Positions 6,057 through 39,901 of a stretch of 64,000 bases of DNA are shown in pieces; the first letter of the stretch is position 1, and each line of letters opens with the position of its first letter. The translations under genes and the position numbers were made by a program. The stretch is taken from assembly GCA_018262095.1 (NCBI GenBank), contig JAGTRW010000010.1, positions 1-64,000 on the forward strand, read 5' to 3'. Source of the stretch: Pseudomonadota bacterium (GTDB lineage Bacteria; Pseudomonadota; Gammaproteobacteria; Burkholderiales; Rhodocyclaceae). The notes beneath the pieces are model-generated. The model made no database searches, was not told the origin of the DNA, and saw only the letters and a program-made list of their open reading frames with translations.

Positions 6057-6132
6057 TGGAGCGGGAGAAGAGTCTCGAACTCTCGACCTATACCTTGGCA
6101 AGGTATCGCTCTACCAACTGAGCTACTCCCGC
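6057..6132 (-). tRNA. tRNA-Gly (GCC), distal copy
   Basis: A 76-nt gene on the minus strand with the 3' CCA encoded. The acceptor stem GCGGGAG/CTCCCGC, the anticodon stem-loop CCTTGCCAAGG with anticodon GCC, and the TTCGAGA T-loop are all present. It appears identical to the copy at 6285-6360. Confidence 0.97.
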
Positions 6133-6145
6133 GTGAAACTGTTGC

Positions 6146-6219
6146 TGGAGGCGCGAGCCGGAGTCGAACCGACCTACACGGATTTGCAATCCGGTGCATA
6201 ACCGCTTTGCTATCGCGCC
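6146..6219 (-). tRNA. tRNA-Cys (GCA)
   Basis: A 74-nt minus-strand gene including the encoded CCA. Acceptor stem GGCGCGA/TCGCGCC, anticodon loop TTGCAAA (GCA), T-loop GGTTCGACTCC. It sits between two tRNA-Gly genes and shares their promoter and terminator. Confidence 0.97.
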
Positions 6220-6284
6220 ATGCCTATCTCGCGATAGGTACTGCCTTTTAGTACAGAAAAGCAATCAATGCTTTTCGCCAAATT

Positions 6285-6360
6285 TGGAGCGGGAGAAGAG
6301 TCTCGAACTCTCGACCTATACCTTGGCAAGGTATCGCTCTACCAACTGAGCTACTCCCGC
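6285..6360 (-). tRNA. tRNA-Gly (GCC), promoter-proximal copy
   Basis: A 76-nt gene with encoded CCA and anticodon GCC. It begins about 10 nt after the predicted transcription start of a strong promoter. The order pgsA then Gly-Cys tRNAs matches the enterobacterial pgsA-glyW-cysT-leuZ arrangement, but with a second Gly in place of Leu. Confidence 0.97.
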
Positions 6361-30156: not shown

Positions 30157-31632
30157 CTAGCTGCCGACTTCGCGATCCCGAACGCGGGCGACTGCCGATA
30201 TCGCGTAAATGATGTCTTCTTCGCTGGTCCTGTGATTTGTAATCGCAGCACGAATCACCGTCCTGCCATCGAGCTTTGTCGTCGAAAAGACTGCATCACC
30301 GGACAACTGCAATTCGGATGTTATTTTCGCGTTCAAGCTATCCTGCGCAGAGCCTTCCCATTCGCGTGGCGCGGCGCTAAAGCAACAAACGTTGAGGCGC
30401 ACGGGCGAGGATAGCCGAAGTCCGGGGGTTGTTTCGACGAGCATGGCCATTTGAGCGGCCTGCTCGCAATTTCGCGTGATCGCCCGACCGAGGGCATCGC
30501 TTCCATAGGCACGCAACGCTGACCAGACCTTGAGCGCCCGGAAGCCCCGCGACAAGTCCGTTCCGTAGTCGCAGTACCAGGGCTCGCCGCCACCCAGCCC
30601 CTGATCCTGCTTCGCAAGATAGGCGGGGCGCGCGGCAAATGCCTCACGATGGATTTTCTCGTCACGAATCAGAGCCACGCCGCAATCGTATTGTACGAAC
30701 ATCCATTTGTGAAAATCGAAGGCGAGCGAATCCGCACGCTCAATGCCTTGAACAAGGTCGCACCAAGGCGCTTGCGCTAGTCGCGCCCAGGCCCCGAACG
30801 CCCCGTCAACATGAAACCACAGATTCTCCTCGGCACACAGGTCCGCGAGCGCGTTGAGATCATCAAAGTAGCCCAAATCCACTGATCCCGCCGTACCCAC
30901 TACGCAGAACGGCAGCAGCCCTGCGGCCCGGTCTTCGGCGATCGCTCTAGAAAGACTGGCGACGTCGATACCCCCATCTGCTCCCATGGGTAACCTGCGC
31001 AGCGTCGACGATCCGACGCCCAGCAGTTCGAGCGCCTTCCCTGTTGAGTTATGCACCCCGTCCACCGCATAGGCGGCAAGCTGTCGAGAGTGCTGAATGC
31101 CGTCGATGCGAGATGCCGTCCCCAAGGCCCTCAAACGCGCAGCAGCGAGGCAGATCACTGTCGCTTGCGACGTTCCGGAGACGAGAAGGCCCGACGCCTG
31201 CGAGGGAAAACCGAAGCAACGCCGGCACCAGTCGATAACCGCCCGCTCGACATAGACGGCACCGTGATCACGACCACCGCAATTGCTATTCATCGTCGCA
31301 ACAATCATTTCGGAAAGCAGGCCGCTGGCTAGCCCACTGCCTTGCACCCATCCGAAAAACCGGGGGTGCGTGTTTCCCGACGAAAAGGGCAAGACATTGC
31401 ACGTCAGTTCATCAACCAAGGCCTCGATGCCACAGCCCTCGGTCGGGTCGCCCAGACTTAGCGGCGCCCGATCCGCGTCACTCAGCGGACGCCATGGACG
31501 ATTGCGGACGTCAACCAGGTGGTCGATACAGGTATCGAGCAGACGGTGGGCTTCGTTACGAAAAGCCGTCCAATCATCCGGATCGAGTGGTGGGGCCAAA
31601 GGGTTCGACTGCGTTGTGTTCTCTGTGACCAT
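30157..31632 (-). CDS. Group II PLP-dependent decarboxylase (aromatic amino acid/DOPA decarboxylase family)
   Basis: A 491-residue fold-type I PLP enzyme. The cofactor lysine lies in LAFDFHKWMFVQYDCG, the aromatic stacking region follows SGTSQATVICLAAARLRA, and the N-terminal PRFFGWVQGSGLASGLLSEM is typical of the DOPA/tryptophan/glutamate decarboxylase superfamily. The exact substrate cannot be read: members act on aromatic amino acids, glutamate, diaminobutyrate or cysteine sulfinate. Codon use is less GC-biased than in the housekeeping genes. It stands alone, with about 335 bp and 130 bp of non-coding DNA on its two sides, at the edge of an accessory block. Confidence 0.88.
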   Translation of the reverse strand: MVTENTTQSNPLAPPLDPDDWTAFRNEAHRLLDTCIDHLVDVRNRPWRPLSDADRAPLSLGDPTEGCGIEALVDELTCNVLPFSSGNTHPRFFGWVQGSGLASGLLSEMIVATMNSNCGGRDHGAVYVERAVIDWCRRCFGFPSQASGLLVSGTSQATVICLAAARLRALGTASRIDGIQHSRQLAAYAVDGVHNSTGKALELLGVGSSTLRRLPMGADGGIDVASLSRAIAEDRAAGLLPFCVVGTAGSVDLGYFDDLNALADLCAEENLWFHVDGAFGAWARLAQAPWCDLVQGIERADSLAFDFHKWMFVQYDCGVALIRDEKIHREAFAARPAYLAKQDQGLGGGEPWYCDYGTDLSRGFRALKVWSALRAYGSDALGRAITRNCEQAAQMAMLVETTPGLRLSSPVRLNVCCFSAAPREWEGSAQDSLNAKITSELQLSGDAVFSTTKLDGRTVIRAAITNHRTSEEDIIYAISAVARVRDREVGS

Positions 31633-32426: not shown

Positions 32427-35400
32427 TCAACTGATCTTGATAGTCGTCTGACAATCGCGAGCCCGAAGCAGAAAATAAGCAGTATTTTTGTCCGCAGTAA
32501 CAGCGTCGACAGACAAAATTTCCCTTGCATTATTTGTAAGTCGCTGAACATAGGTCTGTTCAATCGAATCATTTCCGTGCAATCGCCAAATAAACGAACT
32601 ATGACGAAACAGACTAACCAGATTTCTGACGTCGATTTGAGACTCAAAATAATCCCACAGTGCTCTGTGGGTTTTTATAAAAAGCGAATTGAACCTCTCC
32701 CCGTAGAAATATTGGTATGCAGTAATGAGGTTAGTTAAATCCCCCTTTGAAAGTGATCCGTTTTCCCTTAGACGAATAGATCCAATCTTAACCGCTGCCC
32801 TAGCCGCGTTATAGCTATCACCATCTTTCACGGCGGTTTGGTACACCTGTCTTAGAAGGGCTGTAGCATTAGGGTCTTCGTCTTTTTCAGAAATACGTCC
32901 CAAAACCAAATTATTCGCTACGGTGTTGAATCCGCGCTTTCGCGCTTCATCTTCAAGTAACAGGAGCCCGCTTTTCTTACGTACATCATCCTGCATTTCG
33001 AGAATTATTGACTGCGCTTGTAGGGCATAAGCACTTTTCGGCGAAATATTAATCAATTCATTGGCAACAGAAATAGCCTTCTCGTCTTCCAGAGATTGAA
33101 GACAAAGAGCATACCCACTTAGAATATCTACTTTGTTTTCTTTAGGCCATTTATCCTGTAACAGTTTTTCAAACAATGCTCGCGCCTCTTCGTGTTCGCC
33201 GGACATTCGAAGAGCTTTCGCGAGCATTATTTCTAAGTTGCCACGGTTCTTTTCGTATCCAGAAGCGGGAATGGTGGTGAGAATATCTCTGCATACTATT
33301 GCGCAGCTTCTGTAATACTTTCCGGAAAGTAATGCACCACAGTAAATATGACAGAGATTCAGTATCGGCGAAATGGACGCTGATTCATCCCAGTTTTCAA
33401 TCTGTTCAAGCAAACGCAATACGAGGGCGTGTGGATTCTCTACCAAGCTGCCATCATCGGATGCAAGCTCGCCTCGAATTTTGTTTAGAGATGCAACACC
33501 ATTTCGCCAATTTTCACCGAAGTACAGCGCTATAGCCTTACGAACGAAACCATCAATTTCTCGGCTAGTCATTCTCGACAAAACATAGTCTCGTACAGGG
33601 CGAGGGGCGACAAGTATCTTAAGCCGCTCTTCCTCACTAGAACCAATTCCCATGAGGGTTGTTGATGATCTAACCTGAATTAGATCAAGATCTAGTAATT
33701 CCTCACCGTGTTTTGGGAAAATTGGTTGCGTTGGATCGATACGCTTCAGTCGTTGTAGTGATTCACCATGCGGGAGAATTGCCAGTGCTTTTAGTAAAAG
33801 ATAAGAGCGCTTAGCAGATGAGTCTTTCGATTCCGCTAGTTCGTTAACGGCATGTACCAGAGCAGATGGTATGGATTCGAGGGAAAGATTTGTGTGCGTA
33901 TTCCCAATTGAGGCAGCAAGACCTAGGTCGGAAAGGCTAGCCACACGCAATGATCGTAGCGTAGTGTCAATTTTTCCGGGTAGGCCATCGGTAAGTCGGT
34001 AGATTTCTGTAACTGCACGTGGGGTTTTTGCATCTGCTGAAGCACTAGGGTGAGCGATCAGATAGCTCTTCGTATCTGCCTCATCAAGCGCCTCAAGGGC
34101 CACTGCACCTATTTTGTGTTCTCGAGGCGTAGTTCTTGCCAATAGAAACACAATAATGTCAGGGCAAAAATCCTTGACCATGCGAGCCAAATTTTCGGCG
34201 TCACACTCAATCGGTCTTTCAACAGTATCACCTGAGCTAACAGGTGCCTCGTCAAACATCAATATGGCAGGGCCAGACGCCGCCAGCGCTTTACAGAATT
34301 CAGGAAAGGAACAGCCGGCCATAGTTGAAAATGTTGTGAGAAAAGCTTCACGGCTACCGTAGTTTCCCAAATCGATTCGATAAACGGGCTGCGTGCTTCG
34401 GCCTAATCGCCGCATTACCGACCACAAGAAGCCGTTGCGTCCGAGCCCCCAGTCAGAACAGACCCAGCAAATCCCATGCTGCCGAATGCTTTCGGCACAA
34501 GCCATTTGCAGTAGTTGGCGGATCGACAGATGCTGTTCCTGTTCAGCTAGTGGGTATGAAGTGCTAAGTAGTGCGTTATTCCAATCTGGGAAACTTTTTT
34601 CAACAGCTATCGCCAAATCCACGGCAGGAGCCGAACTTATAGCAAACGACTTCGATGTCGTGGTTGTTCTTATCAAATTTTCAGATTGATATTCGAATCC
34701 TGGTTCAAGATTGAAATTTTCGTGATCTGGTATAAGTTTCCGATCTCCGGTTCGGCTTATGCTTCCTTTTCGAGGCCACAGCTTCCAGGTGACGTTTTCA
34801 CACTCAAAAGAGATTTGTCCGATAGCGTAGCCATGATTGCGCTCGGTTTTTCCATCCGCTAAATGCTCCATTCCAAATAGAGATGCGCTTTGATACGACT
34901 TGCGGCCAGCATCTCCGCCATGAGATCGATTGGTCAAGTCGGCCTCATGCATATGACCAAAGAGATGAGCGGTAAAGCGACCTGGGGTATAAATCTCAGA
35001 TTGGAAGTCACGCACTGCCCCCTGGTTTAGCCAAGACAGAGGGTGGTGCGTAATGAGAAGATTTATGTCGTGTTTACTACACCATGATGGCGCATCGTTA
35101 TCCGTAACTGCATTTAGCTGTCGAGAATCCAGCGCCAATTTCCCCTCAAAATTGCTATCGGTTAGCTGAAGAAAGGCGCTATTTAGTCCGACAAGCCCAA
35201 CCGAGACGTCGTTTATTATCAGCGAGGACGAACTGTCGCCAGGCAAAATCCCTTTTTTCGTTTCAACAACAGGGAAACCTTTTCGGGTAAGTTCATCTTG
35301 CCAATGCACGTAATTCGCGAACGCCTCATGAACTACTTTGATGTATTGATTATCAGTTTTCCCCCAAAACTCTTCTGCGGTTTCCGGATCGGAGTCCCAT

Positions 35401-35729
35401 TTGGCTAGCATCTTGACTCGAGCGTCATTTCCGGGAGGTCTCACAAGATCATGATTTCCAGGAACACAGAATAATTTTGGCTTCTGGTGAATGGTGTCAA
35501 ACAACTCCCAAATCTTGTCCAGATCTTGTGTGAGCGTATCGAATTGACCATGTTCCCCGCCTTGAGTCAAGTCCCCAGAAACTAGGACTAAGTCAATTGG
35601 GCCGGCCTCACCGGAAAGTCTGCGGAGATCTTCAAGAAAGACTGCACGGAAATTAGGCCAAAGCCATTGGGATTTCTGACCAAAATGCCAATCACTTAGG
35701 TGTATCCAAGAGAGTTGTTTTCTTGCCAT
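32427..35729 (-). CDS. Calcineurin-like phosphoesterase fused to a STAND-like NTPase and helical repeats
   Basis: An 1100-residue, apparently standalone protein. Residues 1-310 are a metallophosphoesterase with every metal motif: D13-x-H15 (LSDWHFG), G52-D53, G91-N-H-D94, H228-H229 (LLITHHP) and G258-H-x-H261. Residues about 360-650 look like a STAND/AAA NTPase: a degenerate P-loop CSDWGLGRNGFL (about 425-436, no Lys), a Walker B-like PAILMFDEAP (487-496), a sensor-like strand DIIVFLLART and a GxP-like TDGLPGKI. Residues about 780-1060 are helical and TPR-like. The gene is visibly AT-rich (one sampled 60-base line has 22 G/C). Effector-NTPase-repeat order is that of bacterial NLR-like conflict proteins; the role is inference. 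Confidence 0.8.
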   Translation of the reverse strand: MARKQLSWIHLSDWHFGQKSQWLWPNFRAVFLEDLRRLSGEAGPIDLVLVSGDLTQGGEHGQFDTLTQDLDKIWELFDTIHQKPKLFCVPGNHDLVRPPGNDARVKMLAKWDSDPETAEEFWGKTDNQYIKVVHEAFANYVHWQDELTRKGFPVVETKKGILPGDSSSSLIINDVSVGLVGLNSAFLQLTDSNFEGKLALDSRQLNAVTDNDAPSWCSKHDINLLITHHPLSWLNQGAVRDFQSEIYTPGRFTAHLFGHMHEADLTNRSHGGDAGRKSYQSASLFGMEHLADGKTERNHGYAIGQISFECENVTWKLWPRKGSISRTGDRKLIPDHENFNLEPGFEYQSENLIRTTTTSKSFAISSAPAVDLAIAVEKSFPDWNNALLSTSYPLAEQEQHLSIRQLLQMACAESIRQHGICWVCSDWGLGRNGFLWSVMRRLGRSTQPVYRIDLGNYGSREAFLTTFSTMAGCSFPEFCKALAASGPAILMFDEAPVSSGDTVERPIECDAENLARMVKDFCPDIIVFLLARTTPREHKIGAVALEALDEADTKSYLIAHPSASADAKTPRAVTEIYRLTDGLPGKIDTTLRSLRVASLSDLGLAASIGNTHTNLSLESIPSALVHAVNELAESKDSSAKRSYLLLKALAILPHGESLQRLKRIDPTQPIFPKHGEELLDLDLIQVRSSTTLMGIGSSEEERLKILVAPRPVRDYVLSRMTSREIDGFVRKAIALYFGENWRNGVASLNKIRGELASDDGSLVENPHALVLRLLEQIENWDESASISPILNLCHIYCGALLSGKYYRSCAIVCRDILTTIPASGYEKNRGNLEIMLAKALRMSGEHEEARALFEKLLQDKWPKENKVDILSGYALCLQSLEDEKAISVANELINISPKSAYALQAQSIILEMQDDVRKKSGLLLLEDEARKRGFNTVANNLVLGRISEKDEDPNATALLRQVYQTAVKDGDSYNAARAAVKIGSIRLRENGSLSKGDLTNLITAYQYFYGERFNSLFIKTHRALWDYFESQIDVRNLVSLFRHSSFIWRLHGNDSIEQTYVQRLTNNAREILSVDAVTADKNTAYFLLRARDCQTTIKIS

Positions 35730-36005: not shown

Positions 36006-36548
36006 CTAAACGCCCGGAGGGAGCTTGGCGGCCATCATCTTCTTCCGGTCGATCTTGCGCCCGTCGACGATGAACGTTCCGTCACCCACCGCGTGAACCG
36101 TACGCTTCTCCTTGCGTGCGCTGTCGAAGTATGCGGCAACCGCCTCCAATACGACGATATCGTGTTTTTTGACGATGTCGATGACCTTGCACTCGATATT
36201 GGCGAGGCACTCCTTGATCAAGGGCGGTCTGACGAGCTTGGCCGGTACTGGCGAAAGCCTGAACTTGGAAAATTTGTCGGTGTTTGCCCCAGAACACGTC
36301 CCTATGCCAATTACCTTATCGAGCAGGTCGACGGTGGGAATGGCAATGACGCACTCCCGATTCTTGCGCAAGGCCGCGAACGAGTAATTCCATTTGCCCG
36401 TGGTAATGGCAAATACGGGAGTGAAATCGAGCACCATTGTCCAGGAGATGGTCATGACGTTGTCGCTCGTTCCGTCATGGGTTGTGACGAGGACAACAGG
36501 ACCTGATTCGATCAGCGTAAAAGCCTTTCTCAATTCCAGCGAATCCAT
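36006..36548 (-). CDS. Flavin reductase-like (FMN-binding split-barrel) protein
   Basis: A 180-residue protein of the flavin reductase domain family, which binds FMN and often supplies reduced flavin to a partner oxygenase. It has the family pattern of an N-terminal strand pair (GPVVLVTTHDGTSDNVMTIS), then FTPVFAITTGKWNYSFAALR and ECVIAIPTVDLLDKVIGIGT. The ATG at 36548 is favoured by a near-perfect GGAGGT seven bases upstream; the frame extends 48 codons further without reason. No oxygenase lies beside it. Confidence 0.88.
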   Translation of the reverse strand: MDSLELRKAFTLIESGPVVLVTTHDGTSDNVMTISWTMVLDFTPVFAITTGKWNYSFAALRKNRECVIAIPTVDLLDKVIGIGTCSGANTDKFSKFRLSPVPAKLVRPPLIKECLANIECKVIDIVKKHDIVVLEAVAAYFDSARKEKRTVHAVGDGTFIVDGRKIDRKKMMAAKLPPGV

Positions 36549-36752
36549 GAGAGCACCTCCGATAGTCATGCCAGGCTGGCGAGTCAACAGGCAGTCATGC
36601 CGAGCGAGTGTCGGCTGTGCAACGATTTCCGCGAGGGCCCTGTATCGCCGCCAGCCGCCCAAGGCAATGGCTTTAGCATAGTTCGCCGCCAATCATCGCT
36701 CAATCTCGCAATTCGGAATCGATTTCTGCCGCAAGGCTTTGCCGCTTAAGGG

Positions 36753-37529: not shown

Positions 37530-38375
37530 TCAGCTCGCCGGCTTGTCAGCGACGCCGTTGGCAAAGTACGGCAACAGCGCTTTTGCCGCGGCGATCCGGT
37601 GGCGCGCGCTGACCGACTCGTCGTTCATCACCGCCAGCAGGAAGCTCTGCGGATCGCGGTAATCACCGCCGACCTTGAGCGTTGACCGGCGCCGCGCCGG
37701 CACCTCGCTAGGTGAGGTCGGCTCGGCTTCCCTCGGCGCCGGATCGCTCGGCGGCGCGCTCCGCAGCACGCTGAGCGCCGCTTCAAACTCGGCCGGCGTG
37801 ATGCTTTTGAGCGCGGCCAGCAGTTCGGCCTGCTTGTCCTGATTCGGCGCCATCTCGAGCCACGACTCGTCGATGAACATGCCGCCCAGCGTCGGGTCGA
37901 TGAACGCCGACCATTTGCCGCTCGCCGGGTGCCGCCCCGGCACCAGTCTGATCTGCGCCGGCGTCTCGGCTGCCGGATGCAAGCCGAGACGCAGCGCGGG
38001 AAGGTCGGCCAGGTACGCGGTGCGCAGCGCCGCGAGGAAGGCACCGGCCTGCGCCAAGGGGATTGCTTGGGCGAGCGAAAACCAGATCGCGTAGCCTTGG
38101 TGCCCGGCAATCGAGAGCGCCGGCGCCGGCCAGCCGAGCTCGTCCTGCACCGCCTGATAGAGCTTGGCCGCGCGCTGCCAGTCGTTGGCCCGCGCGAACT
38201 CAACGACCAGCGCACGCACCCGGCCGTCGGCGCCGACCAGGTCGAGCTCGACCGCACTCTCGCCAGCCAGGCTTTGGGCGAGCGTCTTCGCGCTCAATCT
38301 CCCCTCACCGCCAGGCGTCGATCGCTGGTCGTCGAGGAAATAGAGCCGCTGCAGTTCTGTAATCAGTTGGTTCAT
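37530..38375 (-). CDS. Conserved-looking protein of unknown function
   Basis: A 281-residue soluble protein I do not recognise. Residues about 40-190 look globular (VELDLVGADGRVRALVVEFA; GYAIWFSLAQAIPLAQ; SGKWSAFIDPTLGGMFIDES), the middle holds a Pro/Glu/Arg-rich linker (about 205-230), and the C-terminus is helical (HRIAAAKALLPYFANG). The GYAIWF and SGKW..F.DP patterns faintly recall archaeo-eukaryotic primase-like folds, but no catalytic acid pair is convincing. It starts at the ATG at 38375 with a weak ribosome binding site, 28 bp after the ABC ATPase gene and on the same strand, so it may share that operon. Confidence 0.65.
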   Translation of the reverse strand: MNQLITELQRLYFLDDQRSTPGGEGRLSAKTLAQSLAGESAVELDLVGADGRVRALVVEFARANDWQRAAKLYQAVQDELGWPAPALSIAGHQGYAIWFSLAQAIPLAQAGAFLAALRTAYLADLPALRLGLHPAAETPAQIRLVPGRHPASGKWSAFIDPTLGGMFIDESWLEMAPNQDKQAELLAALKSITPAEFEAALSVLRSAPPSDPAPREAEPTSPSEVPARRRSTLKVGGDYRDPQSFLLAVMNDESVSARHRIAAAKALLPYFANGVADKPAS

Positions 38376-38403: not shown

Positions 38404-39124
<721 letters not shown>

Positions 39125-39135
<11 letters not shown>

Positions 39136-39901
39136 AGTGGAAGCGCCGTTCGAGCGCACGGCTGGCGAGCGAGATCGGCAGCGTCAGCAGCAGGTAGCCG
39201 GCCGCCAGCGGCAGATAGCTTTCGAGCGTGCTGTAGGTGAAGGCATTGACTTCCTGTGCGTTGAGCGTGAATTCGCTGACCGCGATGATCGAGAGCAGCG
39301 AGGAATCCTTGATGATCGACGCGAACTGGCCGGTGAGCGGCGGGACCAGCTGGCGAACGACCTGTGGGAAGATCACGTAGCGGTAGGTCTGCGCGCGCGT
39401 CAGCCCGATCGCTCGCGCCGACTCGAGTTGCGAATCGCGGATGCTCTCGATCCCCGAGCGGATCATCTCGGAGAGATAGGCGCCGGCGAACAACGACAGC
39501 GTCAGCACGCCGACGAGATAGCGGTTGTCGACGCCGAAGGCATTGGCGACGACGTAGAAGAGAATCAGGATCTGCACCAGCAGCGGCGTGCCGCGCACGC
39601 TTTCGACGTAAAGCATCGAGAGATAGCGCAGCGGCAGCAAGGCCGAGCGCCGCGCCAGCGCGGTCAGCAGTCCGAGCAGCAAGCTGACGAGCAAGGCGGC
39701 CGCCGAAATCGCGACGGTCATCAGCCAGCCTTGCACGAACTTTTGCCGGTACTGCCAGATCGCGTTCCAGTTCCAGCCGTAGCGCAATTCGCTGAAGGCA
39801 AAGCTGAAGACCGCGCAGACCAGCAGCGCGACCAGCCCCCACGACACGATGGTCGCCGCCAGCGACACCTGCCCGTCGCGGTTCACCAAGAACTGCTTCA
39901 C
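39125..39901 (-). CDS. Amino-acid ABC transporter permease
   Basis: A 258-residue inner-membrane permease of the HisM/GlnP type with about five helices after an N-terminal anchor. The cytoplasmic EAA loop, ESARAIGLTRAQTYRYVIFP, docks the ATPase. The start is GTG at 39901, 13 bp after the stop of the binding-protein gene; no ATG fits as well. The substrate is probably a polar amino acid, set by the upstream binding protein. Confidence 0.92.

Follow-up and report, generated by a model that had tools for sequence, protein, structure and literature searches.

A lone gene joining a metallophosphoesterase, a STAND/AAA+-like core without its P-loop lysine and a TPR-like solenoid: a candidate NLR-like defence protein in a Rhodocyclaceae contig

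The stretch analyzed in the current work (the window) comprises 64,000 nucleotides of contig JAGTRW010000010.1 from a member of the Rhodocyclaceae, and carries an intact open reading frame (ORF) of 1100 codons, the product of which joins an N-terminal calcineurin-like metallophosphoesterase to a STAND/AAA+-like core and a C-terminal helical solenoid resembling tetratricopeptide repeats (TPR). An earlier interpretation, made from the letters of the window (the sequence-only reading), had delimited this gene exactly but left its strand unsaid; the gene lies on the minus strand, the plus strand of the same interval being riddled with stops. Its features are as follows:

32427..35729, minus strand: whole gene, an intact ORF for an effector-switch-sensor protein of 1100 amino acids
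34725..35729, minus strand: calcineurin-like metallophosphoesterase domain, predicted effector, residues 1-335 (Pfam match and active-site residues)
34575..34724, minus strand: low-confidence linker between effector and core, residues 336-385
33870..34574, minus strand: STAND/AAA+-like nucleotide-binding fold, residues 386-620 (structure model and fold matches)
34428..34451, minus strand: degenerate P-loop WGLGRNGF, residues 427-434, with R431 at the lysine position (alignment)
34248..34265, minus strand: Walker B motif ILMFDE, residues 489-494, including D493 and E494 (alignment)
33567..33869, minus strand: part of the STAND module predicted as helical/winged-helix, residues 621-721 (secondary structure of the model)
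32430..33566, minus strand: TPR-like helical solenoid, predicted sensor, residues 722-1100 (model, weak Pfam TPR matches and VIA)

The gene has a GC content of 0.46 (0.41 at third codon positions) and is the lowest among the 36 window ORFs, itself included, whose mean is 0.627 (standard deviation 0.044); this set consists of mechanically picked ORFs of at least 200 amino acids, a few of which may be shadow ORFs. The nearest ORFs on the same strand are located 276 bp upstream and 335 bp downstream, if short ORFs overlapping the gene are left aside, and no operon partner was seen in the window. The description of a lone gene, AT-rich against its neighbors, therefore holds. One match to the gene was found in its own genome, a regulatory scan around it gave values near chance, and no repeats resembling attachment sites were present at its ends.

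Twenty-five proteins sharing the core were compared, namely 12 fused and three split phosphoesterase forms (in the latter the phosphoesterase is an adjacent gene), five fused and four split forms carrying a SIR2 domain, and an effector-less Pantoea copy that lacks the N-terminus and lies just behind an IS6 transposase; phosphoesterase is thus carried by 15 of the 25 and SIR2 by nine. Left out of this set were Rhizobium L042 (L numbers being locus labels), which differs by one residue from L002, plasmids CP071081 and CP047590, the matches of which are those of L009 and L008, and the fragment CP118937. The other eleven fused phosphoesterase forms share 31.5-59% identity with the window protein.

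The phosphoesterase domain matches Pfam Metallophos (PF00149) at residues 9-262 (E 2e-12; 48.4 bits against a cut-off of 21.5), and the eight active-site residues expected from the metal-ligand set of calcineurin-like metallophosphoesterases are all present (D13, H15, D53, N92, H93, H228, H259 and H261), in the window protein as well as in all 15 phosphoesterase forms, fused and split. Both score and ligand set thereby place the domain in this family and bear out the complete metallophosphoesterase seen by the sequence-only reading, which numbered D53 and E494 correctly, while its ‘H94’ is in fact H93 of N92-H93-D94. Structure matching revealed close folds in GpdQ and in Rv0805, a cyclic-nucleotide phosphodiesterase, and the domain resembles SMPDL3A. 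The domain is followed by a linker with a predicted local distance difference test (pLDDT) score below 50 at residues 337-382, and the split Pseudomonas homologues have their gene boundary in the vicinity of residues 336-385 of the window protein.

When the core (residues 386-725) was modelled alone, an AAA+/STAND-like fold was predicted with a mean pLDDT of 80.6, for which the top Foldseek matches were the archaeal AAA+ ATPases 2fna and 2qen (of the STAND type), ORC/Cdc6, CED-4 and Apaf-1, with Avs4 at rank 26, plant RPP1 at rank 46 and Avs3 at rank 49; the whole protein matched 6mfv (a STAND and TPR protein), CED-4 and EfAvs5 (PDB 9jap, E 1.4e-5). The NTPase region proposed from sequence was thus recovered by structure prediction, with limits that shift from residues 360-650 to 386-721, the latter including a part that the CED-4/Apaf-1-type matches suggest to be a winged helix (residues 621-721). 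A search of PDB sequences with the core gave no convincing match, and the VIA lists were dominated by the phosphoesterase in one case and by generic AAA+ proteins for the core, such that absence of a family from these lists excludes nothing.

STAND proteins are recognized by a Walker A motif GK[ST], a Walker B motif hhhhD[DE], and a plan in which an AAA+-like core is followed by a winged helix, a GxP motif and C-terminal repeats. The window protein carries WGLGRNGF in place of the former motif and a regular ILMFDE as the latter, it contains G582-x-P584 (both residues being invariant in a nine-row alignment), and its model conforms to the plan, with AAA+ relatives tying in VIA. That the P-loop lacks its lysine while the Walker B acid pair is retained had been noticed from the letters, and the absence of the lysine extends to all 15 phosphoesterase forms, where R, I, T, A, E, S, G or W occupies its position (glutamate in three forms, arginine in the window protein and L158). 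In total the lysine is missing from 20 of the 25 proteins, since five of the nine SIR2 forms lack it (L007, L008, L156, L166, L167); it is kept by the other four (L004, L005, L009, L165) and by the effector-less Pantoea copy. Each of the 12 fused phosphoesterase forms nonetheless has W427, G428 and F434, and ten of them also have the second glycine. The two Walker B acids are present in all 12 (twice as ED) and altered in two of the three split forms (L003, L157), and 10 of the 11 fused members in the alignment have the sensor-1-like R532. Considering that the lysine is missing in every phosphoesterase form, while W427, G428, F434, the G-x-P residues and, in fused forms, the Walker B acids are kept, classical ATP hydrolysis is most likely not what drives the switch, which would instead bind nucleotide weakly or by other means, or undergo a purely allosteric change; a conserved effector next to a missing ATP-gripping lysine speaks against simple erosion and in favor of a switch that has come to do without this residue.

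Downstream of the core, the model contains antiparallel helices across residues 722-1093, and helical-repeat or TPR proteins were matched by VIA over residues 727-1098. The Pfam TPR matches are weak, span residues 826-894 and are without exception below the Pfam cut-offs, for which reason the repeat fold rests on the model. The TPR-like region of the sequence-only reading is accordingly retained as a predicted solenoid, with limits wider than the 780-1060 first given, and the proposed effector-switch-sensor order agrees with the domain matches and models, the predicted structure showing a STAND/AAA+-like fold and a helical solenoid.

The core of the window protein (approximately residues 390-1064) also matches proteins with a SIR2 domain. 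In a tree of 21 cores the Pseudomonas protein L156, which carries a SIR2_2 domain (2.8e-15), is nested among the phosphoesterase forms on branches supported at 100/100 and 98/97, and constraining the 14 phosphoesterase forms to a single clade was rejected (p-AU 0.0143). Because one SIR2 form nests in this manner, the effector has probably been swapped on one core. The SIR2 domain of L156 is distant from three SIR2 domains of the other clade (best blastp E 3e-5, to Vibrio L007) and nearer to those found in other plasmid proteins (33% and 31%), in agreement with its having been acquired separately. In three Pseudomonas copies the phosphoesterase is a separate gene upstream, adjacent to the core gene or overlapping it; these copies group in one clade (100/99), and the two-gene form therefore looks inherited there.

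A search of plasmid proteins returned 24 records, of which two match over the whole length (Rhizobium, and Pseudomonas HR96, where the match is divided over two genes), 11 match in their C-terminal parts alone (four annotated as SIR2, six as hypothetical, one unannotated) and 11 in the phosphoesterase alone; stops in two plasmid records are located at the match ends and do not point to disrupted genes. Among genome contigs, scanning detected 79 loci, six of them full length (Paraburkholderia at 53% identity, Duganella at 44%, three Pseudomonas and one Rhizobium at 32-34%), the other 73 being confined to residues 1-380. Viral contigs yielded ten loci, two of full length, and a second scan recovered the same two plus two more with the phosphoesterase alone, whereas phage records contained no match to the window protein or to a prophage copy (L119). 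For the SIR2-type core of Klebsiella, a pattern scan found no relative in viral contigs, and no DNA match was obtained in E. coli genomes. At E 1e-12, whole-genome searches detected the core in 6 of 398 genomes in the family of L041 (3 of them already known), 3 of 349 in that of L040 (1 known) and 2 of 346 in that of L042 (1 known). The gene was not found in 58 other relatives of the window organism (0/58), and among 369 genomes of the class its own genome holds the sole near-full-length match, 30 others giving short and weak ones; a housekeeping gene, the outcome against which the homologues were checked, is hence disfavored. On these sequence searches the family is rare and patchy, scattered, and often located on mobile DNA.

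The neighborhoods of several homologues point in the same direction. L119 lies between the regulator region and the tail genes of what we read, from replication-nicking, tail and tape-measure proteins, as a P2-like prophage, and has a GC content of 0.40 among genes mostly at 0.54-0.67. L120 is situated between a tRNA-Gly gene and an integrase, with a repressor further on, and L003 is followed by an integrase. CBASS genes, including an annotated nucC, are found about 2 kb from the Proteus form L008, TrlF occurs near the Citrobacter and K. variicola forms (L004, L165), HsdM about 5 kb from L044 and a KAP NTPase near L157, while the neighbors of L043 are a PD-(D/E)XK nuclease, an AAA_21 gene and a transposase. 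The closest homologue, L158 (32-1147), adjoins a protein in which a uracil-DNA-glycosylase domain is fused to a Panacea antitoxin-like domain, the Panacea match being just below the Pfam cut-off. Short ORFs precede several copies, but their sequences appear unrelated by eye, and no conserved small upstream partner was found.

Within the window, the gene is flanked by genes for a PLP-dependent (pyridoxal phosphate-dependent) decarboxylase (30157-31632) and a flavin-reductase-like protein (36006-36692), each of patchy occurrence in sister genomes. No clean empty site was found in those genomes: in five stretches the two flanking genes match singly and never together, so the flanks themselves are variable, and 30-37 kb of the window looks like a region of accumulated accessory genes. 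An ORF of 281 amino acids (37530-38375, minus strand) has a sub-threshold match to the archaeo-eukaryotic primase domain known from TOTE conflict systems (E 2.7e-4) and no PADLOC match, and a cluster of tRNA-Gly, tRNA-Cys and tRNA-Gly, with two Gly(gcc) genes, is located at 6057-6360.

The best explanation of these observations, which we regard as probable, is that the foreign-looking gene was acquired horizontally and encodes a single-gene NLR-like protein acting against phages or other mobile elements. Judged from sequence, the active site is intact, the core is conserved and bears either phosphoesterase or SIR2, and the distribution is that of mobile genes; the NLR-like defence plan put forward by the sequence-only reading gains support from this choice of two effectors on one core, as seen in other bacterial NLR-like proteins. 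The C-terminal solenoid would sense a product of the invader, upon which the central STAND-like module would change conformation and probably oligomerize; the metallophosphoesterase, thereby switched on, would destroy a nucleotide or nucleic acid, and growth would stop or the infected cell would die, as in abortive infection. A small nucleotide is favored as substrate, given that the core is also found with SIR2, which consumes NAD in other defence proteins.

Several points weigh against this explanation or its parts. To our knowledge, no phage assay exists for any member of the family. The whole-protein Foldseek matches have low TM-scores (for 6mfv and CED-4, 0.21-0.23 by query length), the VIA scores of the core (about 12) are equalled by Clp, proteasome and other AAA+ proteins, the STAND assignment derives from structure models built from nine sequences, and loss of the lysine could equal a complete loss of nucleotide binding. 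As regards effector exchange, the branch of L156 is long (1.62); Enterobacter L005 is split although its 83% relative L009 is fused, and the core frame of L167 stays open for 102 codons ahead of the annotated start, reaching into the SIR2 gene, so that some of the other splits may be recent or represent frameshifted copies. Homologues reside near defence genes at several loci, read one by one, whereas around the window copy no recognized defence gene occurs among ten ORFs scanned at 26.9-43.6 kb (a subset of the ORFs there); of these ten, the ABC transporter ATPase gene at 38404-39159 alone matches PADLOC models, and its matches are read as generic ABC ones. The few scanned neighbors of L040 and L041 are ordinary, and the single one of L045 is unclassified.

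With respect to the switch, it is quite possible, if a little short of an even prospect, that these proteins constitute a distinct NLR-like family, in which the lysine has been abandoned clade-wide beside an invariant effector active site, activation proceeds without classical ATP binding or hydrolysis, and one core accommodates interchangeable effectors, fused or separate. A normal ATP/ADP switch, in which the nucleotide is held by a different basic residue or by the conserved Walker B and sensor residues, and the lysine can be lost without consequence, must be taken seriously as a lesser possibility: it is in keeping with the retained Walker B acids of the fused forms, with R532 and the invariant G582 and P584, and with the arginine at the lysine site of the window protein and L158, and passages of the relevant papers report that PaAvs5 needs Walker A residues (PMC12931631) and DS-8 a NACHT residue (PMC13092281). 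The site itself is nevertheless highly variable, glutamate, present three times, would be unexpected for a conserved phosphate ligand, and the split forms L003 and L157 also have changed Walker B acids. Decay of a foreign gene, with the P-loop as a sign of erosion, would account for the lost lysine of the window copy, yet is scarcely credible and already disfavored, as the reading frame is uninterrupted, all 15 phosphoesterase forms retain the active site, and 12 intact and divergent fused members retain W427, G428 and F434 in the absence of the lysine.

Two further alternatives concern what the protein is. A non-immune signalling or stress enzyme, mobile by chance, whose phosphoesterase degrades a second messenger, would suit the folds near Rv0805 and GpdQ and the lack of a recognized defence gene by the window copy; we consider it unlikely in view of the replacement of the phosphoesterase by SIR2 on the same core, the position as prophage cargo and neighbors such as CBASS. 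That the protein is merely a divergent DS-8 or PDC-S60 protein is more improbable still, although the phosphoesterase evidently belongs to the DS-8 family of such domains: NCBIfam DS8_antiphage (NF053861) matches residues 10-312 at 5.7e-23, with 80.6 bits against a cut-off of 790 for the whole protein, PADLOC PDC-S60 matches at 1.3e-23, DS9_1 at 9.9e-13 and PADLOC ‘Effector’ at 8.5e-15, and the NTPase parts give a weak collinear profile match to DS-8-like proteins (E 5.6e-4, probability 30%). All four library matches are confined to residues 7-313, however, and the core matches SIR2 proteins across 600-700 residues. For the DS-8/PDC-S60-like proteins L066 and L171, the alignment to these profiles takes in the greater part of the profile or of the protein. 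Since these two, at 177 and 190 bits, also fall below 790 bits, this cut-off does not itself decide the matter.

A nucleotide-driven switch is the usual explanation of how NLR-like receptors work, whether in bacteria, plants or animals. A naturally occurring clade devoid of the key lysine, with a conserved and exchangeable enzyme, offers a handle on the need for ATP binding or hydrolysis and on what phosphoesterase effectors destroy, and the family may show how an immune switch can operate without the ATP-gripping lysine. It is, moreover, a mobile family for which the PADLOC and NCBIfam versions searched hold no whole-protein model. In a literature search covering titles, the starts of abstracts and passages, with subscription papers mostly outside its reach, neither the core nor the lysine loss was found described; the plan is already known, and what is new, as far as the searches show, is the family, with lysine loss throughout a clade and exchange of effectors.

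Calcineurin-type phosphoesterase is the commonest effector of one GTPase-centric subsystem (in passages of PMC7159879), and of the eleven phosphoesterase-only plasmid matches the three that were inspected (H14, H17, H21) are all in GASH GTPase operons; these conflict systems differ in being multi-gene GTPase systems with no STAND-TPR fusion. In L168, L169 and L170 (Klebsiella, Aeromonas, Pantoea), which are plasmid clusters of five genes, a related phosphoesterase precedes a GASH protein. L049 and L056, considered as close kin, were rejected on account of cores that do not match; they combine a phosphoesterase with the canonical P-loop GMAGVGKT and repeats, as another phosphoesterase-STAND-repeat family that lends itself to comparison because its P-loop is intact, and L049 partially matches a model of an FxSxx-COOH TPR protein. 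Computational work has described STAND proteins whose effectors vary and include calcineurin-like domains (PMC8195603), and P4-satellite hotspots encode STAND proteins with TIR, SIR2 or nuclease effectors (PMC9122126); the consulted parts of both papers present the same replacement of effectors on an NTPase-repeat frame and location on mobile elements, and do not describe the core of the window protein, its lysine loss or the two-gene forms.

The nearest phosphoesterase-NTPase system with a tested phenotype is DS-8, similar to the PADLOC candidate PDC-S60 and portrayed in passages of PMC13092281 as a single-protein metallophosphatase-NACHT anti-phage system, the defence of which requires phosphoesterase and NACHT residues and the phosphoesterase of which resembles SMPDL3A. 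The two share the one-gene arrangement and an N-terminal phosphoesterase of the same family, the best library match, followed by a P-loop NTPase; they differ in that DS-8 depends on a NACHT residue whereas the window family lacks the P-loop lysine, and in that the DS-8 profile matches the window protein in the phosphoesterase alone, the core being common to SIR2 proteins. Five aligned DS-8/PDC-S60-like proteins also divide by their P-loops, L060, L164 and L047 against L066 and L171, and three of the five lack the lysine, which suggests, from alignment, repeated loss among phosphoesterase-armed receptors and perhaps a wider tendency; given its occurrence in some DS-8-like relatives, ATP-independent activation may recur in such receptors. 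Avs5, a SIR2-STAND protein (PMC12931631 in part; PDB 9jap), resembles the window protein in its order of effector, STAND module and repeat sensor and in fold, and sister forms of the window family carry SIR2. PaAvs5-1, as passages of that paper state, needs Walker A G362/K363 for defence; Avs5 possesses nSTAND3 and an N-terminal SIR2, whereas the window protein has a phosphoesterase and no P-loop lysine, and no Pfam match to nSTAND3 (PF20720) was obtained up to E 0.1 in it or eight relatives. The best reading is consequently of a protein built like DS-8 and Avs5 that stands outside both families.

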